A DNA stretch of 64,000 nucleotides from the NCBI GenBank assembly GCA_016464795.1, contig JAEKNN010000012.1, positions 1-64,000 of the forward strand. Reading direction: 5' to 3'. The notes beneath the pieces were generated by a model. It searched no databases and had not been told where the DNA came from. It saw nothing but the letters and a program-made list of their open reading frames with translations. Below, in pieces: positions 12,704-31,194 of this stretch. The DNA comes from Candidatus Amunia macphersoniae (GTDB lineage Bacteria; Chloroflexota; Dormibacteria; Aeolococcales; Aeolococcaceae). Position 1 is the first letter of the stretch; each line of letters starts with the position of its first letter. The position numbers were made by a program, and so were the translations under genes.

Positions 12704-12714
12704 CTTGGCCTCAG

Positions 12715-12720
12715 AGTATA
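12715..12720 (-). promoter_or_regulatory. ftsA: Candidate -10 box for ftsA-ftsZ
   Basis: TATACT on the minus strand ends 11 nt before the TTG start of ftsA, which would leave a leader of only about 5 nt. The hexamer 17 nt upstream (TTTCTT) is a poor -35 match. It is the best promoter-like sequence in the 300-bp gap that separates ftsA from the rest of the dcw cluster. Confidence 0.4.
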
Positions 12721-12984
12721 ACCGGGCCCCTGCCCTTAAGAAAGGGGTCTGCGAGGGCAAAACCGCAAGATGCTGAGTCTGCAGCTGGAGTATGCCACAA
12801 GATGTGGCCTGTCAGAGCCTAAGCTGTCAAGCCTGCCGAACACCTCAGTCGGTCCGCACTGCCCTGCGCTGGACAGGGGTGGCCAGGGGTGGGATCATGA
12901 CCGGCGCCGCGGCCCAGACGGGGGCTGCGAGGCGGGAGCTCGCTCAACAGGTGCAGTTTGACGGCGAGCCCCCTGACCCCTGGG
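12721..12984. other. Gap between ftsA and the alcohol dehydrogenase gene
   Basis: No convincing gene. It holds a 15-nt perfect interrupted palindrome, GCCACAAGATGTGGC (12794-12808), about 90 nt upstream of the ftsA start, which could be an operator. A short plus-strand frame starting at ATG 12897 runs into the dehydrogenase gene on the other strand and lacks features of a real protein. Confidence 0.4.
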
Positions 12985-13004
12985 CGCCCGGAAATGGCCG
13001 GGCG
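12985..13004 (-). terminator. GC hairpin after the alcohol dehydrogenase gene
   Basis: A 7-bp perfect stem (CGCCCGG / CCGGGCG, 6-nt loop) begins one base after the stop codon. There is no T-run after it on the minus strand, so termination by this hairpin alone is uncertain. Confidence 0.4.
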
Positions 13005-13005
13005 T

Positions 13006-14055: not shown

Positions 14056-14062
14056 GAGGGCA

Positions 14063-14068
14063 ACGGTA
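14063..14068 (-). promoter_or_regulatory. -10 box (TACCGT), leaderless-type, dehydrogenase gene
   Basis: TACCGT on the minus strand lies 7 nt before GTG 14055, leaving essentially no 5' leader. It matches the TANNNT pattern seen before other first genes in this window. Confidence 0.55.
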
Positions 14069-14114
14069 GCAGCGGGGTGGCGACACGACGACGGCCTGCG
14101 TCACCATCATCACC

Positions 14115-15002: not shown

Positions 15003-15005
15003 CCC

Positions 15006-16163
15006 TCAGTGCCGCGGCGTCGGCGACGGCGACGCCAGGGTGAACACAAGCGGCGTCGGTGTGGGTCGTGGGGTGGGTGCCGGCGTGGGAGTGGGCGCCG
15101 CCGCGGGCCCGGCCGCAGCGGTCGGGGCGGCGCGGCTGGCTGGAGCAGGGACGCGTGGCGGCGCCGGTGAACTGGGCAGGATGCTGCCGGAGATATCGCT
15201 GGTCAGCGCCGGCGGCTCCCCTGGCTTGCCGCCAGCCGCCGGCGCGCCCGGGTTCTCGAGGTCGACGTAGCCGAAGGCTGGGCTGGCGAAGTCCAGCCGA
15301 CCCCTGAGGGCGGCAAGGACCGCGAGCTGGCCGGGGATCGCGGCCGCCGCCTGGCTGCTGTCGAGCGCACCGAAGACAGCCTGCCACCCGCTGTGGCACC
15401 AGGCGGAGAAGATGTTGCTGTTGTTGATCACAAAGGCGTCCAGGGTGCAACCGAAAGTGGCGCTCCATCGCTGCGCTGCCCCCCCCAGCAGTTCGGCGAA
15501 GCCGCTGGGAAGCGGCTGCTGTGGACCCGCCCGGTAGTCGAGCAGCAGCGGTGTCCCCCTGCGCGCGCTCTCTGTCGCTTGGGTGAAGGGCAGAACCGCC
15601 TCGTTAGCGGCGATGTAGGTGGCGTCAGAGCCATGGCGGAGGAGCACAGCCGGCTGCCATTCGGTGACGGCGATGTTCACCGTCGAGGGCAGCTGGGTGG
15701 TGACGGTGGCGCTGCGCACCCATGGCAGGGCGGCGATGCGAGATCGAATCGCCTCGTCGTCGAGGGTGAAGAGGCTGGACTCCGGGATGCGCGCGGCTCC
15801 GAGGACCGCGCTGCGGCTCAGCAGGCGCTCGCCCCTGACGTCGACGGCGTGGACCTTGAACGCCGGGGCCACCAGCAGGGCGCACAGCAGCGCCACCTGC
15901 GCGAGCAGCAGTCCCGCGCCCACGATGCGACGCAGCATCGGGCCCCGTTTGGGCTCAGCCGGCGCCGACCGGGGACGGCCGGCGTGTTTGCGGTGGCGGG
16001 GGGACGCCTGCAGCGCGACCCCGGCAGGAATGTGAAAACGGCGGCCCATGCGCGGGCCATCGACCAGACCGGCGGCGATGGCACGAAGGTGCGCGCGACG
16101 TGCGACGACGTCGCCGGGTGGCGGGGGCGCGCCCCGGGGGGGCTCGTGGAGGTGCTGGGGCAT
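15006..16163 (-). CDS. ftsQ: Cell division protein FtsQ
   Basis: Bitopic protein of the divisome core. 385 aa: basic cytoplasmic N-terminus (about 75 residues), one membrane helix (RIVGAGLLLAQVALLCALLV), then a POTRA domain (FKVHAVDVRGERLLSRSAVLGAA) and the FtsQ beta domain (LPSTVNIAVTEWQP). The last about 90 residues are an unusual periplasmic tail rich in Pro, Thr and Ala (PTPTPAPTPRPTPTP). The start is uncertain; internal Met codons exist (for example MGRRFHIP). It lies after the membrane MurF gene, cut off from ftsA by two unrelated genes. Confidence 0.9.
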   Translation of the reverse strand: MPQHLHEPPRGAPPPPGDVVARRAHLRAIAAGLVDGPRMGRRFHIPAGVALQASPRHRKHAGRPRSAPAEPKRGPMLRRIVGAGLLLAQVALLCALLVAPAFKVHAVDVRGERLLSRSAVLGAARIPESSLFTLDDEAIRSRIAALPWVRSATVTTQLPSTVNIAVTEWQPAVLLRHGSDATYIAANEAVLPFTQATESARRGTPLLLDYRAGPQQPLPSGFAELLGGAAQRWSATFGCTLDAFVINNSNIFSAWCHSGWQAVFGALDSSQAAAAIPGQLAVLAALRGRLDFASPAFGYVDLENPGAPAAGGKPGEPPALTSDISGSILPSSPAPPRVPAPASRAAPTAAAGPAAAPTPTPAPTPRPTPTPLVFTLASPSPTPRH

Positions 16164-16270
16164 CGATGAGGGTGACGTGAGCGAGGACGTTCGGCCCTGT
16201 GCGCCGGTTGCGCCATTATGCGGCGGAATGGCGCTTGGGAACGGCTTTGGCCCGCCCCGGCGGTGTCCGA

Positions 16271-17923
16271 TCAGGCGGCGCCCAGGTACGTGTCGGGAAG
16301 GTCGTTGGCGAACAGCACGGCGTCGCCCGGCCGAGCGATGCGGCCGATCAACGCCGTCGCCTCCGAGAGCGATCTGACCACGTGAACATGGTCGTCGGCC
16401 ATCCCGCCTGAGCGCAGCCCGTCGCGGAGCGCGCGGGCCGGCCGCGCGTCCATGACGATGACGTGGTCGCAGACGCGCGCCGCGTGCTCACCGTAGCGCC
16501 GGTTCTCCACGTCCTCGACAGCGCCCAGCTCCACCAATCCGGGCGTGACCAGGATGCGGTGCGTGGCCTCGAGCTCGGCCAGGACCTCGAGACCGTTGTG
16601 CACCCCAACCGGGTTGGCGTTGTACGAGTCGTCGATGACGGTGATGGCGTTCCCGGTGGCGATCGGCTGGAGACGGTGATCGACGGGCTGCAGCGAGGCC
16701 ACGGCGTCCAGCGCCGGCTGCAGCGGAAGGCCGAGCCGTTGGACGGTGGCCAGCGCGGCGGTGAGGTTGAGCACCTGGTGGCGACCGAGCAGCGGCAGGA
16801 CCACCTCGGCATGAGCCTCCACCGCAGCCCAGCTCCAGGTGAACCGGGACCCGCTGCCAGTGACCACGACGTCGCCGGCCACCACGTCCAGGCCGGGGCC
16901 ATCCTCGTCGGAGCCGTAAGTGACCACCTCTCTGCCCTGCTCCCGCGCACGCGCTGCCAGCGCGGCGGTGGCCGCGTCACCGCCGTACACAACCGCGAAA
17001 CCCCGGGCGGGCAGGGCGTCGACCGTCTCGTACAGCGCCGCCGCGATCCTGTCGAGGGTGCCGAAACGTTCCAGGTGCTGCGGGCCCACTGATGTGATCA
17101 GCGCGTGAGTGGGCCGAACCAGCGCGCAGATGGAGGCGATCTCGCCGGGAGCGTAGGCGTCCATCTCGACCACGAATGTGCGATGGGTCTCCTCGAGGAC
17201 ATCGTTGACGGTGCGCGACACCCCCATCAGGGTGTTGAAGCTCTTCGGGGTGGCCAGGGTCGGTCCGTACCTGTCGAGGAGGTGGGCGAGGATGTGTTTG
17301 GTGGACGTCTTCCCGTAGCTCCCCGCCACCGCGATCACCAGCGGGTCGAAGCGCTCGATTCGGCGCCGGGCGGCGCGCAGGAAGCCGCGCCGGATCCGGG
17401 CCTCGACGGGTGCGTTGATCCCGTTCGCCGTCACCAGCAACAGCAGGCTCAGCGAGGTCACCGCGGCACCGGACAGGGTGACCACAGCAGCCGCCAACCA
17501 CATCGGGGCGAGCTGGAGCACTGCGCAGATGGCCGCCCCCACCACCACCGCCAGAACTGCTGCACCGGCGAGCAGGCGGCGAAGCCTCGGGGTGTACACC
17601 AGCTCCTTCTTGGGCGGCAACCATGTCCACGTGCGTTGCGCGACAGCGGTCCCGGCCAGCCACGCGGCGGCAACGATGGCGCGCAGTGAGCCGGTGACGG
17701 CGAGGGCGGCGCAGACAACTGTGACCACGGCGGGCACGGCAGCGGCCAGCAACGCGCTGCGATGCAGCCACCATGCGCGGATGCGGCCCCAGGCGAAGAG
17801 TCGGCTGCCTTCGTACTCCTCGATCTGGTACATGCGCGCCGCCACCAACAGCACGCGAACCACCAGGAGCAACCAGCCGGCGCCGCCAAGCGCCACCAGC
17901 CCCGATTGCAGCGCTGCCATCAC
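16271..17923 (-). CDS. Membrane-anchored MurF-type Mur ligase
   Basis: Predicted UDP-MurNAc-tripeptide:D-Ala-D-Ala ligase with a polytopic membrane domain. In 550 aa, the first about 180 residues hold five or six hydrophobic segments in place of the normal MurF N-terminal domain. Then comes the ligase core: GSYGKTSTK P-loop, VVEMDAYAPGEI, ITSVGPQHLERFGTLD, and the MurF hallmark DDSYNANPVGVHNGLEVL in the C-terminal domain. GTG 17923 overlaps the hydrolase stop; ATG 17920 is an alternative. No ordinary murF or murE is in the window, so this is probably the working MurF, acting at the membrane. The substrate is inferred. Confidence 0.85.
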   Translation of the reverse strand: MMAALQSGLVALGGAGWLLLVVRVLLVAARMYQIEEYEGSRLFAWGRIRAWWLHRSALLAAAVPAVVTVVCAALAVTGSLRAIVAAAWLAGTAVAQRTWTWLPPKKELVYTPRLRRLLAGAAVLAVVVGAAICAVLQLAPMWLAAAVVTLSGAAVTSLSLLLLVTANGINAPVEARIRRGFLRAARRRIERFDPLVIAVAGSYGKTSTKHILAHLLDRYGPTLATPKSFNTLMGVSRTVNDVLEETHRTFVVEMDAYAPGEIASICALVRPTHALITSVGPQHLERFGTLDRIAAALYETVDALPARGFAVVYGGDAATAALAARAREQGREVVTYGSDEDGPGLDVVAGDVVVTGSGSRFTWSWAAVEAHAEVVLPLLGRHQVLNLTAALATVQRLGLPLQPALDAVASLQPVDHRLQPIATGNAITVIDDSYNANPVGVHNGLEVLAELEATHRILVTPGLVELGAVEDVENRRYGEHAARVCDHVIVMDARPARALRDGLRSGGMADDHVHVVRSLSEATALIGRIARPGDAVLFANDLPDTYLGAA

Positions 17924-18693
17924 CCCTCACTGCCCCGCAGGAAGACGCGGACGATGTGGCTGAACCTGTCGGGCTGCTCCGCGTAGGCGAAGTGGCCGCT
18001 GCCCTCGAACAGCACCAACCCCGAGTCAGGGATCAGCCGCTCCATGGTGCGCGCATCGGCGACCGGTGTCTCCTGGTCGCGATCCCCCCAGATCAGCAGC
18101 GTGGGCACGCGCAGGCGGGACAGGTGCGGACGAAGGTCGGCGTTCACCAGGCGGACCATGCTGCCGCGCAGGCTGCCGGCCGCGGCTCGATAGTCAGCGC
18201 TCCCGCGCCGCCCAGCACGCCGAGCTGCAGCGGCGCGCAAGCCGGACGGCAACCACCGCGCTCGTGCTGCCGCCTGCAGCATCTTGAAGGTGCGAACCCG
18301 CCAGTGATGGGTGAGCCCATGGTGTGGGCGAATGCCGGCGCTGTCGGTGAGCACCAACCGGTCGACGCGCTCGGGTCGTGCGGCGGCCAGCGCGATGGCG
18401 ATGCGGCCACCGTTGGAGTGGCCGACGAGGTGCGTCCGATCGACACCGAGCCGGTCGAGCAACGTGATCACCCACCCGGCGTACTCATCGATCCCCCAGG
18501 CCGCCGGCGGCGCGCCCGTTGCACCGAAGCCGGGAAGGTCGGGCACGATCACACGATGACCGGACAGCCGGTCGGCGATGGGTGCCATCAGCTCCTTGGT
18601 CGCACCCCAACCGTGTAGCAGGACCACCGGCGGCCCGCTTCCGATGTCGATGAGCGCCGCTGTTGGTTCCTCGGTCTGGGTCGCCACGGTCAC
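17920..18693 (-). CDS. Alpha/beta hydrolase in the cell-wall cluster
   Basis: 257-aa alpha/beta-hydrolase fold enzyme. The oxyanion HGWGAT, nucleophile elbow GHSNGG, acid in WGDRDQ and the C-terminal GSGHF His make a full catalytic triad. No signal peptide or membrane helix, so cytoplasmic. GTG overlaps the ddl stop and its own stop overlaps the membrane-MurF start, so the three are translationally coupled. The coupling suggests a job with lipid-linked or peptide precursors, but no substrate can be assigned. Confidence 0.85.
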   Translation of the reverse strand: MTVATQTEEPTAALIDIGSGPPVVLLHGWGATKELMAPIADRLSGHRVIVPDLPGFGATGAPPAAWGIDEYAGWVITLLDRLGVDRTHLVGHSNGGRIAIALAAARPERVDRLVLTDSAGIRPHHGLTHHWRVRTFKMLQAAARARWLPSGLRAAAARRAGRRGSADYRAAAGSLRGSMVRLVNADLRPHLSRLRVPTLLIWGDRDQETPVADARTMERLIPDSGLVLFEGSGHFAYAEQPDRFSHIVRVFLRGSEG

Positions 18694-19880
18694 GCCGTCG
18701 ACTTGGCCCCGCCGCCACCCAGCATCCAGCGGTCGAACACGGCGATGCTGTCCGCGTTGCGCGCATGGCGTCGCAGGGCGATGTCGATCAGCTCGTCGAG
18801 CAGCGCTGTGAAGGAGGTGCCGGCGGGCTCGAAGAGATAGAAGGACAGTGAGCCGGGGATCGGGTTGATCTCGTTGACGACAAAGCTGCCAGCTCCGCTG
18901 TCGACGAGCAGGTCGACGCGGGCCACGCCGGAGGCCCCGACAGCGCTGAAGGAGTCCAGCGCGGCCTGGGTGAGTCGTTCGGCCAGCCCGGCTTCCAGCG
19001 GCGCTGGGATCAGCCGCTGGGCACTCTTCATTCCCGCTGACGTCGGCGCCGACTTGCCGCCCTTGGATCGGTACTTGTCGTCGTAGCTGAGCAGCCCTCG
19101 CTTGGTCGGCTGCTCGAGCAGAGAGGGGCGTGCCCCCGTCTGGTCACCGAGCACAGCGCAGTTGATCTCGATGATCCCCTCCTGGGCGGCCTCGACGATG
19201 CACCGTCGGTCGAAGGCCAGGGCGGTCTCGATCGCGGTGCTCAACTCGGCGCTGTCGGCGGCACGCGAAACGCCGATGCTCGAGCCCAGGCTCATCGGCT
19301 TGACGTACAGGGGGTACGGCGCCAGGGATTCCGCGAACCGAACAGCTGCGGATGGGTCGCTGCGCCAGCGCTCGCGGTCCACGCAGACGTCGTCGAGCAC
19401 CGGCAACCCTGCGGCGCGCAGCACGGTCTTGGCGAGCCGCTTGTCCATCGCCACCGCTGACCCGGCCACGTCGCTGCCTGTGTAGGGCACTCCGGCCATC
19501 TCGAGCAGGCCCTGCAGGGTGCCGTCCTCGCCGAGGTTTCCGTGCAGCAGAGGCATGACCACATCGACATCCATCGCCTCGGCGCTGCCACGCCCGAACA
19601 ACCCGCGCTTGGGGGAAGCCATCGGCAGGAGGCGAAACCCGGGGTTGGAGGCGTCGACAACGGGGGTGACCGCCGTGCAATCGGCGAGCAGCTCGTGGAC
19701 GTCAGCGAAGCGACGCAGGTCGCGCAGCACGTCCCCGGTGTACCAGCATCCGTCCTTGGCGATGTACACGGCCACGGCGCGGTGGTGCGGGCCCAGGGCG
19801 GCCATCGCCTGGTGCGCTGTGATCACCGACACCTCGTGCTCCACGGAGCGGCTGCCGAAGATGCACGCGACAGTGCTCAC
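18690..19880 (-). CDS. ddl: D-alanine--D-alanine ligase
   Basis: ATP-grasp enzyme making D-Ala-D-Ala. 396 aa, the longer Ddl/Van type. Visible: FGSRSVEHEVSVITA near the N-terminus, HGNLGEDGTLQGLLEM, GVPYTGSDVAGSAVAMDK, LYVKPMSLGSSIGVS and VNEINPIPGSL. The omega loop reads YDDKYRSKGGK, which differs from the common EKY context, so specificity for D-Ala over D-Lac or D-Ser is not certain. GTG start overlaps the murB stop (GTGA). It is followed by the hydrolase and MurF-like genes that would use its product. Confidence 0.94.
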   Translation of the reverse strand: MSTVACIFGSRSVEHEVSVITAHQAMAALGPHHRAVAVYIAKDGCWYTGDVLRDLRRFADVHELLADCTAVTPVVDASNPGFRLLPMASPKRGLFGRGSAEAMDVDVVMPLLHGNLGEDGTLQGLLEMAGVPYTGSDVAGSAVAMDKRLAKTVLRAAGLPVLDDVCVDRERWRSDPSAAVRFAESLAPYPLYVKPMSLGSSIGVSRAADSAELSTAIETALAFDRRCIVEAAQEGIIEINCAVLGDQTGARPSLLEQPTKRGLLSYDDKYRSKGGKSAPTSAGMKSAQRLIPAPLEAGLAERLTQAALDSFSAVGASGVARVDLLVDSGAGSFVVNEINPIPGSLSFYLFEPAGTSFTALLDELIDIALRRHARNADSIAVFDRWMLGGGGAKSTA

Positions 19881-20803
19881 CGGACTCTCCCTGCAGCCGC
19901 GGGCTCGGCCAGCTCCTCGCCCAGCAGCACGATCTCGCGTTCGAGAACCACGCCGAAACGGGATGCCACCTCATCGCGAACGATGTCGACGAGGGTCAGC
20001 ACGTCAACCGCGCTGGCGTGGTCGATGTTGAGGATGAAGTTGGCGTGCTTGGGGGAGATCTGCGCGCCACCCTGTCGTCGTCCCTTCAGGCCGGCCTCCT
20101 CGATCAGCCGGCCCGCGAAGTCTCCGTCCGGATTCTTGAAGGTGCTCCCCAGGCTGCGTACCCCGTACGGCTGAGTCCGCTTGCGCTCCGCCTGCACAGC
20201 GTCGGTGCGAGCCCGCACCGCTGCAGGGTCCTGGTGCGAGACGGCGAAGGCGCCGCGCATCACGACGTGCCCTGCCAGGTCGTGCTTGAAGGCGGAGTCC
20301 CGATATGCGAAGGCGCACTGCGAGCTCTCGATCCACCGAGTGGTGCCGTCAGGCGCGATCACCTCACAGGCTGTCAGCGTGCCGGCGACATCGCCTCCGA
20401 AGGCACCGGCATTGCCCCATATCGAGGCACCGCAGCTGCCGGGCACACCGATGCCCCACTCCATGCCGGCGACGCCCTGATGGGCCAGGTCGAGCGCCGC
20501 TCGCGGCATCATCGTTCCGGCGGCGAGCGTCGCCTGGCCGTCCGCGACCTGGGTCTCCTTGCTCGCCGAGCGGACGGCGAGGCCGCGGATCCCACCATCG
20601 AGGATCAGAGCGTTGCTGCCCGCGCCGAGAATGGTGAGCGCCGTCCCCGTCGCGGTGCATCGTGCCACCAGCTCGGGCAGCACGGCCAGGTCGTCGACTC
20701 GCAAGAAGGCGTCAGCAGGGCCGCCGACACCGTACTGGCTGTGCCGCGCCAGCGGTTCATGGTGGCGAACACCGGGCCAGCCCGCCAGCCATTCAGAGGA
20801 CAC
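19877..20803 (-). CDS. murB: UDP-N-acetylenolpyruvoylglucosamine reductase
   Basis: FAD enzyme that finishes UDP-MurNAc synthesis. About 308 aa from GTG 20803, which overlaps the upstream ligase gene by 11 nt. FAD-binding ILGAGSNALILDGGIRGL, GIGVPGSCGASIWGNAGAFG and the catalytic Ser segment RSLGSTFKNP are conserved, with AGLKGRRQGGAQIS and HANFILN near the C-terminus (type II MurB). A longer frame to 20839 exists. Confidence 0.95.
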   Translation of the reverse strand: MSSEWLAGWPGVRHHEPLARHSQYGVGGPADAFLRVDDLAVLPELVARCTATGTALTILGAGSNALILDGGIRGLAVRSASKETQVADGQATLAAGTMMPRAALDLAHQGVAGMEWGIGVPGSCGASIWGNAGAFGGDVAGTLTACEVIAPDGTTRWIESSQCAFAYRDSAFKHDLAGHVVMRGAFAVSHQDPAAVRARTDAVQAERKRTQPYGVRSLGSTFKNPDGDFAGRLIEEAGLKGRRQGGAQISPKHANFILNIDHASAVDVLTLVDIVRDEVASRFGVVLEREIVLLGEELAEPAAAGRVR

Positions 20804-22193
20804 GCGATGGCTCCAGGGCGCTGACCAGGCGCGTGGCAATCTTGTCGAATCCGCCCAGGGACAGAACCAGGATCACGTCACCACTGCGGGCCAGGCGTTC
20901 CACCAGCTCGATCGCCTCATCAGCGGACCCGACCACGTGAACCGGTGCGTGGTCCCCGGCTCGGGCTGCCACATCATGGCTGCTGACCAAGGCCGTCATG
21001 CCCCGCTCGCGGGCGGCCTCGATGGGCCCGAGGATCACCACGTCAGCGCCGGTGAAGCTGTGCGCGTAATCGTCGAGCAGGGTCAGGGTCCGCGAGTAGG
21101 TGTGCGGCGTATGGATGGCGATCAGTCGCCGTCCGGGATACCGTGACCTCGCCGCTGCGATGGTGACCTCCACCTCGGTGGGATGGTGTGCGTAGTCGTC
21201 GATGATGGTTGCGCCACCGACCTCGCCCACCACCTGGAAGCGGCGGCTGGGCCCGGCAAAGGTGGCACAGGCGTCGACACACGCTTGCCACGAGGCGCCC
21301 GCATCCTCGGCGAGGATCAGCGCTGCGGTGGCGTTGAGCGCGCTGTGCCGGCCGGGGAAGGTCAGAGCCACCGGCGAGCTGACGTCGTCGTGACTGACCG
21401 TGAAGTGCTGCAGACCATCGTGGTCATTGTCGGGCCGCACGCGCCAGTCGGCCGCGATGCTGGAGCCGTAGGTGACGACGCGGCAGGCAGCATCCGCGGC
21501 CAGGGCGGTGCACTCGGTGTCGTCAGCGCAGAGCGCCAGCAGACCGTCCGCCGGCATCGTCCGCGCCAGCTCCACGAAGGGTGCTCGATAGGCGTCCAGG
21601 GTTGGGTACACGTCGGGATGGTCGAGCTCCAGCCGGATGACGCAGGCTGCCTGGGGGTTGATGTGCAGGAACTTCGGCCGGGCGTCCCAGGGCGCCGTGG
21701 TGTACTCGTCGCCCTCTAACACGAAGGGCCCAGTTCCCAGCCGGGCGCTGCCACCGAGGTCCAGCGACGTCGAGCCGAGGCGATAGCCGGGATCCAACCC
21801 AGCGGTCGACAGCATGTGGGCCAGCAGCGACGACGTCGTGGTCTTGCCGTGGGTACCGCACACGGCGATGCGGCGCCGATCCGCGGTGAGGCGGAGGTAG
21901 AACTCGATCTCGCTGCAGAGCGGCAACCCACGATCGCGGGCTGCGATCCACTCCGGATTGGTGACCCGGGTCTGGTTGCCGACGACCACCAGCTCGGGGA
22001 CGCCCCAGCGATCTAGGTTGGCGGCATCGCTGCCGTCGACCCAGTCGACGCCGGCAGCGCTGAGGATGTCGGTCGTCGGCGGGTAGGCCTGGTCATCGGA
22101 TCCCGACACCCGCCAGCCCTGTTCCCGCGCCACCAGCGCGGCACCGCTCACGGCATAGCCGCAGATCCCCAGGAAGTGCACATGGCCGGTCAC
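20793..22193 (-). CDS. Mur ligase in the murC position, Mpl-like
   Basis: 466-aa cytoplasmic Mur ligase. By position it should be MurC (UDP-MurNAc:L-Ala ligase), but its signatures are those of Mpl, the recycling enzyme that attaches a whole tripeptide: LGICGYAVSGAA then GSDDQAYPPTTDIL, VVVGNQTRVTNPEW, the P-loop GTHGKTTTSS, SARLGTGPFVLEGDEY and RPKFLHINPQ ahead of LDHPDVY. Classical MurC has ADESDASFL and VTNIEADH here. The C-terminal part has IIDDYAHHPTE shared by both. No other murC is in this window, so either this Mpl-like protein does the MurC step or murC is elsewhere. Directly upstream of murB and downstream of murG. Confidence 0.85.
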   Translation of the reverse strand: MTGHVHFLGICGYAVSGAALVAREQGWRVSGSDDQAYPPTTDILSAAGVDWVDGSDAANLDRWGVPELVVVGNQTRVTNPEWIAARDRGLPLCSEIEFYLRLTADRRRIAVCGTHGKTTTSSLLAHMLSTAGLDPGYRLGSTSLDLGGSARLGTGPFVLEGDEYTTAPWDARPKFLHINPQAACVIRLELDHPDVYPTLDAYRAPFVELARTMPADGLLALCADDTECTALAADAACRVVTYGSSIAADWRVRPDNDHDGLQHFTVSHDDVSSPVALTFPGRHSALNATAALILAEDAGASWQACVDACATFAGPSRRFQVVGEVGGATIIDDYAHHPTEVEVTIAAARSRYPGRRLIAIHTPHTYSRTLTLLDDYAHSFTGADVVILGPIEAARERGMTALVSSHDVAARAGDHAPVHVVGSADEAIELVERLARSGDVILVLSLGGFDKIATRLVSALEPSRVL

Positions 22194-23293
22194 GCCGGAA
22201 TTCTCGCCGGAGCACCCGCCAACGCGCCCAGCAGATCCACCACGCGCGCGGCAGCGTCACGACGGCCGAGGGTCGAGCTCGCCGCCGCCATCCGTCGCCA
22301 GGTGGTCGGGTCGTCGATCAGCGCCATCAGCTCGTCGGCCACCCGCTGAGGCGAGCATTCCGCATCGGGGATGACGCGGGCGGCACCCGCGTCGGCGTAC
22401 GGCCGTGCGTTGAAGCGCTGGTGGTCGCCCGCATGCGGGTATGGCACCAGGATCATCGGGCGTCCCATGGCGGAGCACTCGGCGAGTGACGACCCGCCGG
22501 CGCGCATCAGAACCGCATCGGCGGCCGAGATGGCCGCACCGACGTCGTCGATGAAGGGAAACGCCCTCCACCGCGCGCGCAGCGCGTCGGGCAGGGCGGC
22601 GCGAGCCGTCTGCATCTCCGCATCGTCGAGGCTGCCCGTCTGGTGTGTGATGTGGAGCAGCGGATACCTCTGCAGCAGTGACCGCACGCATCCGGCGACG
22701 GCACGGTTGATGCGCCGCGCCCCCTGCGAGCCGCCCATCACCAGGACGTGGTCGCAGTGACCATCGAGCGGCCGGACGGGGACCGCCAGCACCTCGGTGC
22801 GAATTGGGTTGCCGGTGTGGACAACCCGCACCCCCGGGAGCAGCGCCGCCGTCTGCTCGAACGCAGACGCCACCAGCCGCGAACGTCGCGCCAGCAGGCG
22901 GGTCGCGCGTCCGGGAAGCGCGTTCTGTTCGAGCAGGACGACAGGGATCCGCAACCGGCGAGCAGCGAGGACAACCGGGACGCTCACGTAACCGGCGCCG
23001 CCCACCACAACATCCGCGCGGAAGCTCCGGATGATGCGTGCTGCCGCCGCGATCGCGGCTGGAAGCTGGGCGGCGAACCGCGCCACGCTGGTCGCACTGC
23101 GCATGTCGAGGCCGGACACGCGCAGCGTCTCCAAAGCGAAGCCTGCCGATGTCACCAGGCGCTCCGCGACCCCGCCGCGGCGTCCCACGATCAGCACCTC
23201 GCCGTCTGGGTCAGCTCGACGCAGCTCCTGGGCGACTGCCAGCACCGGCGTCAGGTGACCGCCCGTCCCGCCTCCGGCGATCAACGTGCGCAC
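22190..23293 (-). CDS. murG: UDP-GlcNAc:lipid I GlcNAc transferase
   Basis: Makes lipid II at the inner membrane face. 367 aa GT28 enzyme with GGGTGGHLTPVLAVA at the N-terminus, VVGGAGYVSVPVVLAA, LLEQNALPGRATRLLA, VMGGSQGARRINRAV and the UDP-binding RAGGSSLAE. The start (GTG 23293) is 83 nt inside the 3' end of ftsW in another frame; its stop overlaps the next gene. Confidence 0.97.
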   Translation of the reverse strand: MRTLIAGGGTGGHLTPVLAVAQELRRADPDGEVLIVGRRGGVAERLVTSAGFALETLRVSGLDMRSATSVARFAAQLPAAIAAAARIIRSFRADVVVGGAGYVSVPVVLAARRLRIPVVLLEQNALPGRATRLLARRSRLVASAFEQTAALLPGVRVVHTGNPIRTEVLAVPVRPLDGHCDHVLVMGGSQGARRINRAVAGCVRSLLQRYPLLHITHQTGSLDDAEMQTARAALPDALRARWRAFPFIDDVGAAISAADAVLMRAGGSSLAECSAMGRPMILVPYPHAGDHQRFNARPYADAGAARVIPDAECSPQRVADELMALIDDPTTWRRMAAASSTLGRRDAAARVVDLLGALAGAPARIPA

Positions 23294-24470
23294 GAAGCGC
23301 CACCCCCTGTCTGCGTCCCTGCGCAGACACGTTGCAGAGGATCCCCACTCCGGCCAGCGTCACCGCCAGCGAGGTGCCCCCGTAGCTGATGAACGGCAGC
23401 GGGATCCCGGTGGTGGGAATGACGCCGGTGACAGCACCGATGTTGACGAACGCCTGAATGCCGATCCACGCGGTGATACCTCCGGCGAGCAGGGCCCCGT
23501 AGGCGTCGGGGGCGCGCAGGGACGCGCGGACTCCGCGCCACAGCAGCAGTGTGAACGCCAGGACGACCGAAACGGTTCCGAGCAGGCCCAGCTCCTCACC
23601 GATGATTGCGAAGATGAAGTCGGTGTGAGCTTCGGGGAGCCACTGGTACTTCTGCACTGAGTTGCCGAGCCCCACGCCCGCGAACCCGCCACTGCCGAGC
23701 GCGTAGAGGGCCTGGCAGGCTTGAAATCCTGTCTTCAACGGGTCGTCGCAGGGGTGCGTGAAGTTGGTGACCCGGCTCGACCGGTAGGAGACCAACATGA
23801 TCGCCATGTAACCACCGGCCATCACCAGGCCGAGCAGTACCAGGAGATGGTGCTTGCGCACCCCGCCAAGTGCCAGCAGTGCCAGCGCGGTGCCCGCGAT
23901 GATGATGCTGCTGCCGAGATCGCGCTCGAGCAGAACCAGCCCCAGGAGGATCCCCACCAACAGGCCGTAGTCACGCACCCCGCGCGCAGTGCGAATCGCC
24001 GGGGCGCGCTCGGCGAGCCATCGAGCGAAGAAGAGGACCGAGACCAGGATGGCGATCGCCGAGGGCTGGACCGACATCGGCCCGATGGTGAACCACCGGC
24101 GTGCACCGTTCGCCTCGGTGCCGAGGTGTGGCAGCAGCACCAGGATGAGCAGAGCCACCGTGCAGAGCCCCACTGCGGGGGTCAGTCGGTGGAAACGGTG
24201 ATAGTCCGTCCGTGCCAGGATCACCAGCGCGCACACGCCGAGCCCCATGCCGAGCAACTGCCGCAGGAAGAAGTAGTTGGGGTTCTCGAACCAGAGGTAG
24301 CCGAGCGCCTCGCTGGCGCTGTACACCATCACCAAGCCGAGCGCGCACAGCGCGGCGATGTCGGTGAGCAGCCAGCCGTCGGCGCCACCGAGGCTGAGGG
24401 TGCGGCCGCCGGTGAGCACTTCCCGCAGGCGCAGGGCGGGCATCGCCAGTGGTCGGGCGCGGGTGGCCAT
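23211..24470 (-). CDS. ftsW: SEDS peptidoglycan polymerase FtsW
   Basis: Lipid II polymerase of the divisome. 419 aa with ten predicted membrane segments; VMVYSASEALGY, RRWFTIGPMSVQPSA and the late PTTGIPLPFISYGGTSLAVT motif define the SEDS family. The catalytic Asp region lies in the large loop with SVQKYQWLPEAHTDFIFAIIGEE-type sequence. The last about 40 residues are Arg/Gly-rich and overlap murG, so they may be an unconserved tail. Start ATG overlaps the murD stop as TGATG. Confidence 0.95.
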   Translation of the reverse strand: MATRARPLAMPALRLREVLTGGRTLSLGGADGWLLTDIAALCALGLVMVYSASEALGYLWFENPNYFFLRQLLGMGLGVCALVILARTDYHRFHRLTPAVGLCTVALLILVLLPHLGTEANGARRWFTIGPMSVQPSAIAILVSVLFFARWLAERAPAIRTARGVRDYGLLVGILLGLVLLERDLGSSIIIAGTALALLALGGVRKHHLLVLLGLVMAGGYMAIMLVSYRSSRVTNFTHPCDDPLKTGFQACQALYALGSGGFAGVGLGNSVQKYQWLPEAHTDFIFAIIGEELGLLGTVSVVLAFTLLLWRGVRASLRAPDAYGALLAGGITAWIGIQAFVNIGAVTGVIPTTGIPLPFISYGGTSLAVTLAGVGILCNVSAQGRRQGVALRAHVDRRRRDGRSPDAGAGSRPGAASS

Positions 24471-25831
24471 CAGCGCTCCCCGTCCGTCGCCGGCAACGCG
24501 CGCACCGACGCCGCGAAAGCGGTCCCCCGCTCCTCGAAGTTCTTGAACTGGTCGAAGCTCGCATACCCTGGAGCGAGCAGAACGACGTCACCCGGCCGGG
24601 CGAGGTCGGCGGCGGCGTGCACCGCGGCAGCCTGGTCGGCAACCCGCACCAGAGAGTGGAAGCCGCGAGCTCCCAACTCTGCTTCGAGCTCGCCTGCCGT
24701 GTCGCCGTTGACGATGGCGGCACGGGCGTGGCCGACCACGGCTGCCGCCAGCTCGCCGGCAGGCACGCCCTTGCTGTAGCCCCCGCCGATCCACACGATC
24801 GGCCTGTCGAACGCCTCCAGGGCGCGGGTGGCGGCGTCGACGTTGGTGGCCTTGCTGTCGTTGACCCACACGACCCCGTCCCGATCGGCGACCACCTCCA
24901 ATCGATGGGGCACCGCTGTGAAGTCACGCACCGCGGCCGCGATGTGGTCCGCGTCGACGCCCGCCGCATGACCCACCGCCGTCGCGGCAAGAACATTCAG
25001 GACGTTGTGCGCGCCGAACAGTGGGATGTCGGCCACAGGCATGACCATGCCTGCGCCACCGGAATCGACGATCACCACATCGGTACCGTCGACCGTGGCC
25101 CCGTCCACACCGCGCAGGTGAGCTCCGAAGTAACGGACCTGCGCCGCGGGCGGCGCCGCCGCGGCCATTGCGCGCGTCACCGGGTCGTCCCAGCCGAGCA
25201 CCGCGAAGGAAGCCGCGTGTTCCACGACGCGCTGCTTGGTTGCTGTGTACGCCGCGAGCGTACCGTGCCGGTCGAGGTGATCGGGGCTGACGTTGAGCAC
25301 CACTGCGATCTCGCAGCGCGGAGCCTCGACCGACTCCAGCTGAAACGACGACAGCTCCAGCACCACCCAGTCGTCGCTGCGGACGAGGTCGAGCCGATCG
25401 AGCATGGTCGCGCCGATGTTTCCGCCCAGGTGCACAGTTCGTCCGTCGCGGCCGATCACGGCGGCGCACAGGCTTGTGGTGGTGGTCTTTCCATTGGTAC
25501 CGGTGATGCCGACGATGCGCCCGCGGCAGCGCTCGAAGACCAGGGCGATCTCGCTGCGAACAGGTATGGCGAGACTCCGGGCGAGAGCCAGCTCCGGGGC
25601 GACCCAGGGCACCCCGGGCGACGGGCAGACGACGGCAGCCCCTCGAACCACGTCCGGTTCGTATCCCCCCAGCTGGGTGCGCACGCGCGGGGGCAGGGTG
25701 GCCGCCAGGTCGCGCAGGCGTGCGTCATCGCCGCGGTCGACCACCAGCACCTCGAATCCTTCGCCGGCGAGGACCCGCGCGCACGCGGCGCCGCTGCGAC
25801 CCAAGCCGATGATCACCGCGCGATCGTTCAC
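24470..25831 (-). CDS. murD: UDP-MurNAc-L-Ala:D-Glu ligase
   Basis: 453-aa Mur ligase with an N-terminal VIIGLGRSGAACARVL domain, P-loop GTNGKTTTTS, the Asn/His segment LNVSPDHLDRHG, and a C-terminal domain with VNDSKATNVDAATRAL, a MurD hallmark. GTG start overlaps the mraY stop (GTGA). It is the only fully canonical Mur ligase in this window. Confidence 0.96.
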   Translation of the reverse strand: MNDRAVIIGLGRSGAACARVLAGEGFEVLVVDRGDDARLRDLAATLPPRVRTQLGGYEPDVVRGAAVVCPSPGVPWVAPELALARSLAIPVRSEIALVFERCRGRIVGITGTNGKTTTTSLCAAVIGRDGRTVHLGGNIGATMLDRLDLVRSDDWVVLELSSFQLESVEAPRCEIAVVLNVSPDHLDRHGTLAAYTATKQRVVEHAASFAVLGWDDPVTRAMAAAAPPAAQVRYFGAHLRGVDGATVDGTDVVIVDSGGAGMVMPVADIPLFGAHNVLNVLAATAVGHAAGVDADHIAAAVRDFTAVPHRLEVVADRDGVVWVNDSKATNVDAATRALEAFDRPIVWIGGGYSKGVPAGELAAAVVGHARAAIVNGDTAGELEAELGARGFHSLVRVADQAAAVHAAADLARPGDVVLLAPGYASFDQFKNFEERGTAFAASVRALPATDGER

Positions 25832-26805
25832 GCCACGGCTCCGCGCGAACGTGCGTACAGAACCGTGAGAAGGGTGCCGAGCGCCGCGGCCAGGCTGAAA
25901 CAGGCCACCAGCCGCTGCTCACGGATGCCGAGCTCCTCGAAATGGTGGTGCAGCGGGCTGGCCCGCAAGACTCTGCGGTGAAATCGCTTGATGGCGGTGA
26001 CATTGACCAGAACGCTGAGAGTCTCGACCACGAACACGATGCCGGTCAGCGGCAACAACCAGAGCAGGTGCAGCTCGGCAGCGACGGCGACAAGTGCGCA
26101 CCCGATCGCCAGCGAGCCGGTGTCACCCATGAAGATGCGCGCCGGGTACCAGTTGAACAGCAGGAAGGCTGCGAGCCCGCCCACCAGGGCGGCGCTGGCA
26201 ACCACCGCCGGCAGCGCGTGCTGGTGCAACGCCACCGCGAGGAGACCGGCAAAGACGATGGCGCTGCAGCTGGCTGCAAGGCCGTCGACACCGTCGGTGA
26301 GATTGACGGCGTTGCTGACCGCGGCCACCGCGAGCATGCTCACCACGATGATGCCTCCGCCTCGCAGGTCGGGGGCGCCGAGCCCTGGAAAGAACTGGCG
26401 GGTGGCGCCGACGACGTCGAGGCCGATGCCGACGAGCAGACCGATGAAGGCCTGGAACACCAGCTTCTCCCGGGCCCCCAGCCCGAAAGCGCCACGCCCA
26501 CTGATGTTGGCGCGGTCGTCGAGCAGCCCGAGCAGAGCACCCGCGCCCAGAGCGAAGACCAGGACGAACCCCGCCCGGCTACGGTCGAACCCCAGCCACG
26601 CTGCGACCACGATCGCACAGAAGAGTGCTCCACCCATGGTCGGCGTGCCCTGCTTGAGCAGGTGGGTCGCGGGGTTGTACGACTGGACCCGCTGACCAGC
26701 CCCATGCCGCGCCAGCTGCGTGATCAGCGCCGGATACAACACCACCCCAGCCGCCACCGCAAGCACCAGCACCAGTGCAGCGTGTCTCAGGGAAGGATCC
26801 TCCAC
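25828..26805 (-). CDS. mraY: Phospho-N-acetylmuramoyl-pentapeptide transferase
   Basis: Ten-helix membrane enzyme that makes lipid I. About 325 aa from GTG 26805, overlapping the PBP gene by 19 nt. Conserved: KQGTPTMGGALF, NAVNLTDGVDGLAA with the catalytic Asp residues, FNWYPARIFMGDTGSLAIG and the C-terminal HHHFEELG. A longer frame to 26838 exists but adds a non-conserved N-terminus. Confidence 0.96.
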   Translation of the reverse strand: MEDPSLRHAALVLVLAVAAGVVLYPALITQLARHGAGQRVQSYNPATHLLKQGTPTMGGALFCAIVVAAWLGFDRSRAGFVLVFALGAGALLGLLDDRANISGRGAFGLGAREKLVFQAFIGLLVGIGLDVVGATRQFFPGLGAPDLRGGGIIVVSMLAVAAVSNAVNLTDGVDGLAASCSAIVFAGLLAVALHQHALPAVVASAALVGGLAAFLLFNWYPARIFMGDTGSLAIGCALVAVAAELHLLWLLPLTGIVFVVETLSVLVNVTAIKRFHRRVLRASPLHHHFEELGIREQRLVACFSLAAALGTLLTVLYARSRGAVA

Positions 26806-28550
26806 TGGTCGATGGTCACCTGGGCGACCTGCTTCCACACCGGGGCCGCCAGGGTGGCGCCGAAGCGCTGGACGAAACCCTCATGGGGATAGTTGAGAAC
26901 CACCAGCATGGTGAACTGTGGATTCTTGGCGGGCAGGAACCCGGCGAAGGACACCACCAGGTTGTCTCCGTAGCGTCCGTTCTGGGCGACGCTGGCGGTT
27001 CCCGTCTTGCCGGCCACCTGGCCCTTGAAGGCGGGGATGCGGGCCAACGAGCCCTCACCCCCCTTGTCCTCGACCACACCGGTCATCATCTGGGAGAGCG
27101 TGGCGGCCGCTTCCGCTGAGATCACACGTCGGGTGGTCGGCACCACCGGCGTCGACCGGCCAGTCGAGGGGTCGATCACCGCCTGCACCGCATGCGGTTG
27201 CACCCACACGCCGCCGTTGGCGACGGCGTTGATGGCAGCGAGAACCTCGACCGGGGTCACCTGCACGTGCTGTCCGAAGGCATCCTCGGCGAGGTCGAGC
27301 GGGCTCTGGGAGGGTTGCGCGGGCAGCGGCACGTTCTGCTCACCGGCGAGATCGACGCCGGTGGGAGCGCCGATACCGAAGGCCAGCTGGTTGCTGTAGA
27401 AGGCGTCGGGTCCCATCAACTGGCCGATCTTGATGGCGCCGTTGTTCAGCGACAGGTCGAGCACGTACTGCATGTTGATGGTGCCGTGGGCACGATTGTC
27501 CCAGTCGTGGATGGTGGCGCCGTTGATGGTGGTAGGGCCTTCGTTGAAGGTGTAGCCGGGAGTGATCGCATGGGCGTTGAGGCCGCCGGCGAAGGTCACC
27601 ACCTTTTCCACGGATCCGGGCTCGTACACGTTGGCGACGGCCAGGTCACGGAGACTGGCGATTGGCGAGGCCCAGTAGCTGTTGGCATCGTAGGTCGGCG
27701 CCTGCGCCCACGCCTTGATGGTCCCCGACTTGGTGTCCATCATGATCAGCGTTCCTGAGGAGGCCTGGGCGGAGGCCACGCCCTGCGCGAGTGCCTGCTC
27801 GGCCCAGTACTGAACCTGCGAGTCCAACCCCAGCTGCAGATCGTTGCCGTTGCGAGCATCTGCCTGTGGATCGTTGCTCAGGGTGATCGAGTTACCCGCC
27901 ACGTCGCGAACGGTGGATTGGCGGCCGTCGCTGCCGTGGAGCACCGATTCGTAGTACGACTCGAGACCGTACTGACCGTGACCGTCGTTGTTGACGTAAC
28001 CGAGGAGGTTGGCGGCAAAGGACGAACCGCCCACCGGGGAGGGCTCGTACACGCGCTGCTCGGCGGGTACCACAACGATGCCCGGGAGCTGGAGGGCTGT
28101 CAGGCGATCGCTGACATCCTGCGAGACCCCCTTGGACAGGTACACGAAGCGAGTCGGCTTGGAGATCAGCGAGTCGATGCTTGTCGTGTCCATCGACAGC
28201 GCCGGAGCCAGGCGTCGGGCAACGTCCCCTCTGGTGGCGACCTGGATCAATCCCGGGTCCGCGTACACGTCGTAGATGGTGCGATTGCTGACCAGCACAC
28301 GTCCTGTGCTGTCCAGGATGCGCCCGCGCGTCGCCGGGATGACCACGGACTTCTGGTGCAGGGCCGCTGCCGCCGTCGCCAGCGCGGAGTGCTGGCGCAC
28401 CTGCACGTCGAGAAGGCGTGCGGTCAGGGTGATCGCCATCGCCAGGAACGCAAGGGCGAGCCACCTGCTGCGGTGCCTGAAATCCGGGGCGTCGGCGACG
28501 AACCATCCGCGCAGCCGGGGGGATGGGACAGGGTTGCGCCGCCGGCTCAT
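26787..28550 (-). CDS. Class B penicillin-binding protein (FtsI/PBP2 type)
   Basis: Septal transpeptidase partner of FtsW. 587 aa: short cytoplasmic tail, one membrane helix (about 29-50, LALAFLAMAITLTARLL), a pedestal domain with RGRILDSTGRVLVSN, and the transpeptidase domain with SxxK in YEPGSVEKVVTF, SxN in LSLNNGAIKIG and KTG in GKTGTAS. No PASTA repeats. It overlaps ftsL upstream by 4 nt and mraY downstream. Its dcw position supports an FtsI role; no murE or murF follows it, unlike in most dcw clusters. Confidence 0.95.
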   Translation of the reverse strand: MSRRRNPVPSPRLRGWFVADAPDFRHRSRWLALAFLAMAITLTARLLDVQVRQHSALATAAAALHQKSVVIPATRGRILDSTGRVLVSNRTIYDVYADPGLIQVATRGDVARRLAPALSMDTTSIDSLISKPTRFVYLSKGVSQDVSDRLTALQLPGIVVVPAEQRVYEPSPVGGSSFAANLLGYVNNDGHGQYGLESYYESVLHGSDGRQSTVRDVAGNSITLSNDPQADARNGNDLQLGLDSQVQYWAEQALAQGVASAQASSGTLIMMDTKSGTIKAWAQAPTYDANSYWASPIASLRDLAVANVYEPGSVEKVVTFAGGLNAHAITPGYTFNEGPTTINGATIHDWDNRAHGTINMQYVLDLSLNNGAIKIGQLMGPDAFYSNQLAFGIGAPTGVDLAGEQNVPLPAQPSQSPLDLAEDAFGQHVQVTPVEVLAAINAVANGGVWVQPHAVQAVIDPSTGRSTPVVPTTRRVISAEAAATLSQMMTGVVEDKGGEGSLARIPAFKGQVAGKTGTASVAQNGRYGDNLVVSFAGFLPAKNPQFTMLVVLNYPHEGFVQRFGATLAAPVWKQVAQVTIDQWRILP

Positions 28551-29035
28551 GGGGACACCCCGCGAGGCTGATGCACGCCCAGGGCACCGCCGACGGTCGC
28601 CACGAACCGCTGGAGCGGATCACCCCCTGCGGGCGCGCTCGCCACCAGGGGCGCCGGCATGTTCACCACCGGCTTGAGAGGTACGTCGACATACGACCAG
28701 TGCCCCGCCGGCCGCATGCCTAGCGTCTGCGCCGCCGCCACGATGCGCTCAGCGCTCTCGAGGCGCGCGAGATCGCCCGCGAGCTGGGAGTTCTGGCCGC
28801 GCAGCTGCTGGTTCTGCTCTGCCAGGTTGCCCGCCTGGTAGGTGGCCTGTGTGGAGTGCGCGCTCTGGCTCACGTACGCCACTCCCACTCCCGCGAGCGC
28901 TGCGATGAGCGGCAGCAAGGGCAGCGGGGTGCGCGGACCGCCACGACGCAGGCGGGTGCGGCGGGCGGGCGGGTGGTCGTTGACGTGCCTGTCGAGGTCG
29001 TCGGCGGGAAGCTGAAGGTGTGGCTTTCTGGGCAC
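28547..29035 (-). CDS. FtsL-like division protein
   Basis: 162-aa bitopic protein: basic cytoplasmic N-terminus (about 38 residues), one helix (PLPLLPLIAALAGVGVAYV), then a coiled-coil (about 68-105, NLAEQNQQLRGQNSQLAGDLARLES) and a non-conserved extracytoplasmic tail. This layout and the position between rsmH and the PBP gene identify the FtsL slot. GTG 29035 has GGAG 9 nt upstream. Sequence identity in this family is too low for a firm symbol. Confidence 0.8.
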   Translation of the reverse strand: MPRKPHLQLPADDLDRHVNDHPPARRTRLRRGGPRTPLPLLPLIAALAGVGVAYVSQSAHSTQATYQAGNLAEQNQQLRGQNSQLAGDLARLESAERIVAAAQTLGMRPAGHWSYVDVPLKPVVNMPAPLVASAPAGGDPLQRFVATVGGALGVHQPRGVSP

Positions 29036-29092: not shown

Positions 29093-30094
29093 TCAGCGCG
29101 CGTCGTCGAGCCTCTCGGCGACACGGAGCCGGGCGGATCGAGCTCGCGGATTGGTCGCGAGCTCGGCGGCGTCGGGCTTGATCGCCTTGCGGCTGAGGAG
29201 GAGAAGAGAGGCCCGGTGAGCGCAGGTGCAGTGGGTCTGTTGGGGCGGACATAGACAGTTCTGTGCTGCGACGTGGAGTGCGTTCTTGACAATGGTGTCC
29301 TCGAGGGAGTGGAAGGAGACAACCCCAAGACGCCCACCGGGCCGAATGATTCGGATGGCTGCCTGCAGTCCCGCGTTCAGGCTCTCCAGCTCGTGGTTCA
29401 CCTCGATGCGGAGTGCCTGGAATGTGCGTGTGGCCGGGTGGATCCGCTTCGGCCAGAAGCGCCGCGGGATGGCCCGTTCGACCACCTCGCGCAACTGGGT
29501 GGTGGTGGTGAGCTGCCGCTCGGTCCGACTGCGCACGAGGCTGGCGGCGATGGCGCGAGCGAAGCGCTCCTCCCCGTAGGTGCGGATCAGGGCGGTCAGG
29601 TCGGCCTCCGGCCAGCCGTTGACGATGTCGGCGGCAGTGATGTCATCGCGGCGATCCATGCGCATGTCCAGCGGACCATCGAAGCGGAAGCTGAATCCGC
29701 GCACAGGGTCGTCCAATTGCAGCGACGAGAGGCCGAGGTCGAGCACGACGCCGTCGACACGGCCGAGGCGGTGGGCCTCCGCGATCGACTCCAGGTCGGC
29801 GAAATCGCCCTGGACGGCGGTCACCGCGGTGGTTGTGAAGCGCCTCCTGGACAGGTCCACGGCCGTCCGGTCGCGATCGATGGCAAGGATGCGCCCACCG
29901 GGATGAACGCGCTCGAGGAACGCGGCGACGTAGCCTCCGGCGCCCAGGGTGCCGTCGATGTACGTCTGCCCCGGCCGGGGCTGCAGGCTCTCTATGAGGG
30001 GGTGTAAAAGGACCGGCCGGTGACCCGTCGCCTCAGGCGTCGGACCACCGGGCGTGGCAGTGATCTCGTCGTCCATGCCGGCCACGATCGACAT
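29093..30094 (-). CDS. rsmH: 16S rRNA m4C1402 methyltransferase
   Basis: SAM-dependent methyltransferase, formerly MraW. 333 aa with HRPVLLHPLIESL, the SAM motif DGTLGAGGYVAAFL, VVLDLGLSSLQLDDP and GGRLGVVSFHSLEDTIVKN. The ATG at 30094 has AGAGG about 6 nt upstream; a second ATG at 30076 is possible. Second gene of the mra operon. Confidence 0.97.
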   Translation of the reverse strand: MSIVAGMDDEITATPGGPTPEATGHRPVLLHPLIESLQPRPGQTYIDGTLGAGGYVAAFLERVHPGGRILAIDRDRTAVDLSRRRFTTTAVTAVQGDFADLESIAEAHRLGRVDGVVLDLGLSSLQLDDPVRGFSFRFDGPLDMRMDRRDDITAADIVNGWPEADLTALIRTYGEERFARAIAASLVRSRTERQLTTTTQLREVVERAIPRRFWPKRIHPATRTFQALRIEVNHELESLNAGLQAAIRIIRPGGRLGVVSFHSLEDTIVKNALHVAAQNCLCPPQQTHCTCAHRASLLLLSRKAIKPDAAELATNPRARSARLRVAERLDDAR

Positions 30095-30133: not shown

Positions 30134-30583
30134 TCACTGACGATCGGCAGCCGCGCGCGATCGGGTGCCGATGCGATCGCCGAGCTCGGTGAAGATCTCA
30201 GGATTGAGGGCCAGTACCTCGGCGTCCCAGACCTGCTCGCCAACGATCTCCACGACGTTGGAGACCCCGACAAAGACAGCTCGATCCTGGATCTGCGCAA
30301 AGCTGCGGTGCTCGGGGGTGAGCAAGATCCGGCCCTGCGCGTCGATGTCGACCGGCCGGGCGCCGGCATGGAGGTGGCGCATGAAGAGGCGCTTGTCAGC
30401 TGAGCTCTCGGCCGTCAGGCGGAAGTTCTGCTCGTACTCCTGCCACTCCTGCGCCGGCCGGATCACGAGCCGGTTCTCCGCGCCCGGAGCAACCACGGCG
30501 CCGGCCAGGTCGCGGCGGAACTGAGCCGGAAGCGCCACCCGGCCCTTGGGATCGACGGAATGGCGGAAGCTGCCGTAGAACAC
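30134..30583 (-). CDS. mraZ: Transcriptional regulator MraZ
   Basis: DNA-binding protein of the AbrB-like double-psi fold that usually represses its own dcw operon. 149 aa with two tandem MraZ/SpoVT-AbrB units: GSFRHSVDPKGRVALPAQFR at the start and DIDAQGRILLTPEHR at about 84-98. First gene of the operon. A set of AAAGTGG-type direct repeats lies in its leader (see operator at 30633-30658). Confidence 0.97.
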   Translation of the reverse strand: MFYGSFRHSVDPKGRVALPAQFRRDLAGAVVAPGAENRLVIRPAQEWQEYEQNFRLTAESSADKRLFMRHLHAGARPVDIDAQGRILLTPEHRSFAQIQDRAVFVGVSNVVEIVGEQVWDAEVLALNPEIFTELGDRIGTRSRAAADRQ

Positions 30584-30632
30584 GGCTCAGCCCTCGCCAT
30601 CACGTCGTGCCCACGGCCTCTGCACATTCCTT

Positions 30633-30658
30633 GCCCTTTCACCACTTTCCACCACTTT
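30633..30658 (-). promoter_or_regulatory. mraZ: Candidate MraZ operator (AAAGTGG direct repeats)
   Basis: On the minus strand three direct repeats are stacked with 9-10 bp spacing: AAAGTGG (30652-30658), AAAGTGG (30642-30648) and AAAGGGC (30633-30639). MraZ is known to bind direct repeats of this general kind ahead of its own operon. The block sits about 20-45 nt downstream of the predicted -10 box, an ideal place for autorepression. Confidence 0.75.
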
Positions 30659-30676
30659 GCCCCACCAGTGCCGCGA

Positions 30677-30705
30677 AAGGTAGCAGTCTGGCCTCAACGC
30701 GTCAA
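30677..30705 (-). promoter_or_regulatory. mraZ: Promoter of the mraZ-dcw operon
   Basis: Minus strand: -35 TTGACG (30700-30705), 17-bp spacer, -10 TACCTT (30677-30682). Predicted transcription start near 30670, giving a leader of about 87 nt that contains the MraZ repeats. Confidence 0.7.
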
Positions 30706-30761
30706 TGCGAACAGATGTACCTGTCGTGTCGCCTCGCTCGGCGGCCGTGGCGGCGCCGAGA

Positions 30762-30773: not shown

Positions 30774-31173
30774 GCAAGCCGGCCGGACGGCCGCGGGCGC
30801 TCGTCGTCCGAGGAAAGTCCGGGCTCCACAGAGCAGGGCGCTGGGCAATACCCAGTCGGGGTGACCCGAAGGAGAGTGCCACAGAAATGACACAGCCGCG
30901 GTGAGAGCCGCGGCAACGGTGAAATGGTGGGGTAAGAGCCCACCGGCGGCCGGGTGACCGGCCGGCCAGGTAAACCCCGTCCGGAGCAAGGCCGAACAGG
31001 GACGAGCGGCTCGCCGCTCAGGGGCTGCTCGCCCCGTGTCCCGGGTCGGGCCGCTGGAGGCGCCGGGCAATCGGCGTCGTAGATGGATGGCCGTCCCCCG
31101 CCGCCGGGGAGCGGCGACCTCGGGGTCGTCAACGAAGCGGTGGGGACAGAACCCGGCTTACAGGCCGGCTTGC
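30774..31173 (+). ncRNA. rnpB: RNase P RNA, bacterial type A
   Basis: Catalytic RNA that trims tRNA 5' leaders. The ends pair as helix P1 (GCAAGCCGGCC at 30774 with GGCCGGCTTGC ending 31173). Conserved cores are present: GAGGAAAGTCCGGGCTCC near the 5' side, the GGTAAACCCC segment, and ACAGAACCCGGCTTACA at the 3' end. About 400 nt, consistent with type A. Divergent from mraZ, convergent with rnhA. No T-run terminator is visible before rnhA. Confidence 0.95.
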
Positions 31174-31194
31174 ACGCTCCCCACCCCGACGTTC

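Follow-up and report, generated by a model that had tools for sequence, protein, structure and literature searches.

A predicted LexA box and a predicted MraZ operator at the dcw promoter of Candidatus Amunia macphersoniae and its family

The window analyzed here, a contig stretch of 64,000 nucleotides from Candidatus Amunia macphersoniae, carries mraZ on the minus strand (30134..30583, GTG start). Membership of its product in the MraZ family is clear from Pfam (PF02381, 83.3 bits compared to a cut-off of 23) and from PDB sequence matches, and the KGR and QGR loop residues are invariant in 12 of the 12 aligned sequences. Genes of the dcw cluster continue on the same strand with rsmH/mraW (29093..30094; PF01795, 343.7 bits), and a scan listed no terminator between mraZ and rsmH. 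A small ORF with no Pfam match (28547..29035) occupies the place of ftsL and was assigned by position, and the next gene encodes an ftsI-type penicillin-binding protein (26787..28550; PF00905 and PF03717). The remaining cluster (11465..26838, minus strand) has Pfam matches, and names were given from Pfam and gene order: mraY, murD, ftsW, murG, murC, murB, ddl, an alpha/beta hydrolase, a Mur ligase, ftsQ, a zinc alcohol dehydrogenase, and ftsA. The zinc alcohol dehydrogenase (13006-14055) and the alpha/beta hydrolase (17920-18693) are insertions in the cluster. On the plus strand, the divergent neighbor of mraZ is rnpB, the gene for RNase P RNA class A (30775..31176; RF00010, 248.5 bits), and it lies outside the regulatory region considered below.

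An earlier note on this DNA had placed a TTGACG-17-TACCTT promoter before mraZ. We found the promoter on the minus strand and conserved across Candidatus Dormiibacterota relatives. The -35 hexamer TTGACG, read from the sequence and conserved, is at 30700..30705 (reads 30705-30700), and the -10 hexamer TACCTT, separated from it by a spacer of 17, is at 30677..30682 (reads 30682-30677). Counting 5-10 nt from the -10, transcription would start at approximately 30667..30672 (near 30670) on the minus strand. TACCTT is a weak match to TATAAT (3/6 positions), and for this reason a strict sigma-70 consensus scan of 29900-31300 listed no promoter. It is thus conservation that argues for the promoter. 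We searched 60 relatives for MraZ; five of them had no match on their contigs, and mraZ upstream regions were taken from 55. Regions of 200 bases were used, except in family f4, where a small ORF ahead of mraZ made us extend them to 330. All family counts (f1 to f4) include the window genome, which belongs to f1. Once aligned on the -35, the upstream regions of the relatives share TTGAC, a 17-base spacer, TA...T, and then the repeats. The corresponding pattern TTGAC-N18-TA...T is present in 25/27 f1, 16/18 f2, 6/6 f3, and 4/5 f4 upstream regions, and at most 0.3% of letter shuffles match it.

Downstream of the -10 are three GTGGNGNNAA units (30640..30665, minus strand), assigned as an MraZ operator from pattern match, genome-wide uniqueness, and conservation. 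The earlier note had described three AAAGTGG-type repeats with 9-10 bp spacing; the three repeats stand, and the spacing has to be corrected to a period of exactly 10 bp, with GTGG cores beginning at 30665, 30655, and 30645. The array is located 82-57 nt before the mraZ start and is followed by a weak partial fourth unit, AAAGGGC, extending to about 30632. The three-unit consensus GTGGNGNNAAGTGGNGNNAAGTGGNG agrees with the mraZ site at 19/19 fixed positions, compared to 13/19 for the runner-up among non-overlapping positions of the window. A search for the three-unit pattern in the organism's own genome (2,923,699 bases), tolerating up to 3 mismatches, found the mraZ site only; with the pattern reversed as a control there were 0 forward and 2 reverse matches. 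Hence no second three-unit array that could serve as another MraZ target was detected in these 2.92 Mb. Two exact two-unit matches do exist elsewhere (on contigs C2 and C27), but for this shorter pattern the reversed control exceeded the pattern itself (35 vs 22).

The search for these repeats in relatives, which the earlier note had proposed, turned out positive: GTGG-N6-GTGG is present upstream of mraZ in 52 of 56 genomes (26/27 f1, 15/18 f2, 6/6 f3, 5/5 f4), compared to 0.8-1.2% of letter shuffles. Of 52 more distant mraZ loci, 42 also have a GTGG pair when the spacing is allowed to vary more, in a search run without shuffle control; these 52 come from a set of 80 loci, of which 28 judged Dormiibacterota-like were left out. 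The pairwise identity of the array in 13 f1 sequences is 0.46, a value that is understated by one-base shifts. Repeats of similar type are described for Mollicutes, E. coli, and Burkholderia. The operator is given as (AAAGTGKN3)3 in Mollicutes and as four 7-nt repeats with 3-nt spacers in Burkholderia cenocepacia (PMC5282649, PMC8475190, PMC7761207). The array described here resembles both in having direct repeats with a GTG core and a 10-bp period, which follow the -10 and overlap the start of the dcw operon or lie close to it, and it is unique in its genome as in M. genitalium. It differs from them in having three clear units with a GTGG-richer core, in belonging to a high-GC uncultured phylum, and in having a LexA box upstream. 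A search for literature on MraZ structures with DNA returned nothing of use. We regard the array as an ordinary predicted MraZ operator; its placement just downstream of the predicted transcription start, as proposed earlier, has good support from the sequence, its uniqueness, and its conservation.

Immediately before the -35, within this intergenic region but beyond the interval covered by the earlier note, is the 13-mer GTACATCTGTTCG (30708-30720). An identical 13-mer precedes recA in the same genome, in the same orientation relative to the gene. This block is a candidate LexA box abutting the core promoter: the predicted LexA/SOS box, the 14-mer GTACATCTGTTCGC (30707..30720, minus strand), ends one base before the -35 and was assigned from the recA identity, a scoring matrix, and conservation. 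The matrix, 14 bases wide, was built from 35 boxes of family f1 (17 of lexA and 18 of recA) with no mraZ site included, and was used to scan both strands of the window. It ranks the mraZ site first in the 64 kb, with 23.9 bits compared to 12.2 for the second best site. The score exceeds 12.2 in 24 of the 27 f1 mraZ upstream regions; degraded boxes at equal offset are found in genomes G009 (8.8) and G015 (6.3), and G016 has none. In the f1 alignment the block reads GTACATTTGTTYG(C) right before the -35. A fixed-position pattern places the box at a constant distance from the -35 in 26/27 f1 genomes, and 12 of the 13 f1 genera having mraZ carry it, where it should be noted that box counts in f1 to f4 are not independent because the genomes are related. 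The mean pairwise identity of the box is 0.76 vs 0.31 in the 29 bases upstream, as calculated from 13 sequences of 12 genera (two from the organism's own genus, G016 left out).

Outside f1 the box is distributed unevenly. Family f2 is mixed: 1/18 genomes fits the fixed-position pattern, seven of the eight genomes of genus g15 have a GTACTACAGTTCGC-like box that is absent from the remaining one, g17 and g18 have boxes with other spacing or orientation, and g16 and g19 show no box at mraZ in 7/7 genomes. The fixed-position pattern matched 0/11 mraZ promoters of f3 and f4, and a LexA box specific to f3, sought by eye at mraZ, was not seen. The lexA promoters of f4 keep similar boxes while mraZ there is without one. 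At the 52 more distant mraZ loci the box was found in 0/52. Genome G016 has no convincing LexA (E 4.6e-4) and no box at mraZ or recA. As a separate observation, G016 (loci L045 and L195) seems to have lost LexA and both boxes and yet has kept its MraZ repeats.

The LexA encoded by the genome of the window has a DNA-binding domain and an S24 domain for self-cleavage. In this genome the pattern CGAACANATGTNC gave six rows, corresponding to five distinct places (one being a palindrome), and its reversed control gave 0; these places precede recA, imuA, radA, a repair-type helicase, and mraZ. The pattern GWACAWNYGTTYG gave 15 rows, or 14 distinct places, with 1 match of the reversed control. Genes adjoining these sites are lexA itself (TIGR00498, 185.2 bits vs cut-off 110.95; S24 peptidase domain), recA, radA (TIGR00416, over cut-off), xseB, mraZ, and those encoding an ImuA-like protein (34.3 bits, below cut-off), a DEAD helicase (partial ORF, best NCBIfam match DECH_helic), an RNase_H_2 protein, a helix-hairpin-helix protein, a YneA-like LysM protein (best NCBIfam match the YneA division suppressor, 41.6 bits with cut-off 60), and two DUF222-HNH proteins with LexA-type boxes at their starts (C45:73348, L290, and C64:45915, L292). 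The two other sites are one at a contig end (C48:16435), whose 13-mer is identical to one of the DUF222-HNH boxes, and one on C70 that has no assigned gene. The set of 14 sites looks like an SOS regulon, so that the mraZ motif, as part of this set, goes beyond a chance occurrence. Within f1, GAACATCCGTTTGC-type boxes are readable in 17 of 18 lexA promoters, the eighteenth being cut by a contig end, and GTACANNTGTTCG-type boxes or close variants precede recA in 18/19 genomes, G016 being the exception. A looser LexA-box pattern in six genomes gave further matches, which were assigned in part. The Gram-positive-type LexA box is GAACNNNNGTTC, and the regulon resembles Gram-positive LexA regulons both in box type and in its targets lexA, recA, imuA, and the YneA-like suppressor. 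It differs from them in that the dcw promoter is included and in that the first half of the box is often GTAC at mraZ and recA. The YneA-like LysM ORF (C45:46522-46567, L288) is membrane-protein-like; two LexA-like boxes accompany it, and the lexA box is about 2.5 kb away.

From the sites, the regulon match, and the conservation, all of which are seen directly, we infer binding and repression by both proteins as well as the transcription start: the dcw operon is most likely under LexA and MraZ control. Division genes would then probably be tied to the damage response in a clade of uncultured bacteria. The three MraZ boxes would be located at about +5 to +30, and an MraZ ring there may block promoter clearance, resulting in autoregulation. 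The LexA box would span about -50 to -37 and touch the -35, and a LexA dimer bound to it may hinder RNA polymerase; since the box is just upstream of the -35 and not across it, repression by LexA is likely but not forced. DNA damage would induce self-cleavage of LexA and lift the hindrance. Provided that the cluster is transcribed as one unit, all of its genes would be subject to both proteins. Damage could plausibly trigger a pulse of dcw transcription, which MraZ would go on to limit, beside the YneA-like SOS division suppressor whose gene neighbors lexA. Autorepression of the whole dcw operon by MraZ had been predicted in the earlier note. The operator part of that prediction holds, the repression part is carried over from other species, and MraZ does not appear to be the sole regulator given that a LexA box abuts the -35. 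Absence of the box in f3, f4, and part of f2 counts against dual control.

SOS division control is usually ascribed to dedicated inhibitors (SulA, YneA), and induction of division genes in SOS runs counter to the usual division block. A possible, though doubtful, reading is that MraZ acts as an SOS brake on division: removal of LexA by damage would cause a burst of expression of mraZ, which heads the operon, and MraZ would then shut its own promoter and with it the dcw cluster. If true, the circuit would form an incoherent feed-forward loop, and its effect would be to time or pause division, in parallel to the YneA-like inhibitor.

Dual repression has to be weighed against other readings of the same sites. 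It seems unlikely that both sites are real but that one of the proteins acts positively, with LexA upstream of the -35, or MraZ, as activator. With its center near -44, the LexA box is placed such that an activator could touch polymerase; however, LexA is a repressor in well-studied systems. As for MraZ, the reports in Mollicutes have opposite signs: overexpression in M. gallisepticum is accompanied by more FtsZ (as cited in PMC8475190), whereas deletion of mraZ in M. genitalium is reported to raise the downstream mraW and ftsZ. The location of the repeats at the start site favors repression by MraZ. We consider it quite improbable that MraZ is the sole regulator and that the upstream block, on which LexA would not act, is a usual part of the promoter or is bound by some other factor. 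In favor of this reading, the block borders on the -35, a region in which conserved promoter elements do occur; against it, few copies of the motif exist in the genome, among them those before lexA, recA, imuA, and radA. Furthermore, its recA copy is downstream of a -10-like TACAGT and not upstream of a -35, and the mraZ promoters of f3 and f4 retain their -35 and -10 without it. Finally, ownership of the box by the divergent gene is highly improbable and was rejected: rnpB does start 55 bp from the box on the other strand of the window, but the distance of the box is constant to the mraZ -35 and not to rnpB, three f2 loci have rnpB co-directional with mraZ, and in genome G008 rnpB is about 800 bp away with a co-directional ORF between that ends 24 bases before the box, so that no divergent gene explains the box there. 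Judged by position, the fixed partner of the predicted box is the mraZ -35.

A LexA site upstream of mraZ has been found before, in gut metagenome data, where B. subtilis LexA bound it in an in vitro gel shift (2014, PMC3998124). The two cases share a LexA site upstream of mraZ, shown by binding in that work and predicted from sequence here. The site of that study is metagenomic Gram-positive, whereas the one reported here belongs to Dormiibacterota and is kept at one position over 12 genera; it is also an asymmetric GTAC...GTTCG box common to recA, and it shares one promoter with an MraZ operator. In C. glutamicum, ciprofloxacin is reported to lower mraZ mRNA, and the LexA-mraZ link is therefore not general. 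Searches of non-subscription literature for LexA with mraZ and for LexA with Dormibacter found no report for the phylum. The MraZ operator part of our result is ordinary; what is new is a dcw promoter with both predicted operators, kept through the family. The operon of the division and wall machinery itself appears to be under the damage repressor, at a fixed position through the family and together with a widespread MraZ operator. This would add a second lineage in support of a LexA-mraZ link that previously was one in vitro observation from gut metagenomes, and the long-obscure role of MraZ becomes testable within the damage response.

Two minor features were seen in the mraZ upstream regions of the other families. 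In f4 (L078, L084, L086) the small ORF seems, by eye, to be placed between the MraZ operator and mraZ and to meet the mraZ start, and it contains GGGGAGAAGTGG on the opposite strand. In f3 (L077, L081, L083) a different conserved block, CACAAGATTTAGT, is located shortly before the -35, with a similar CACAACATCTAG preceding it.
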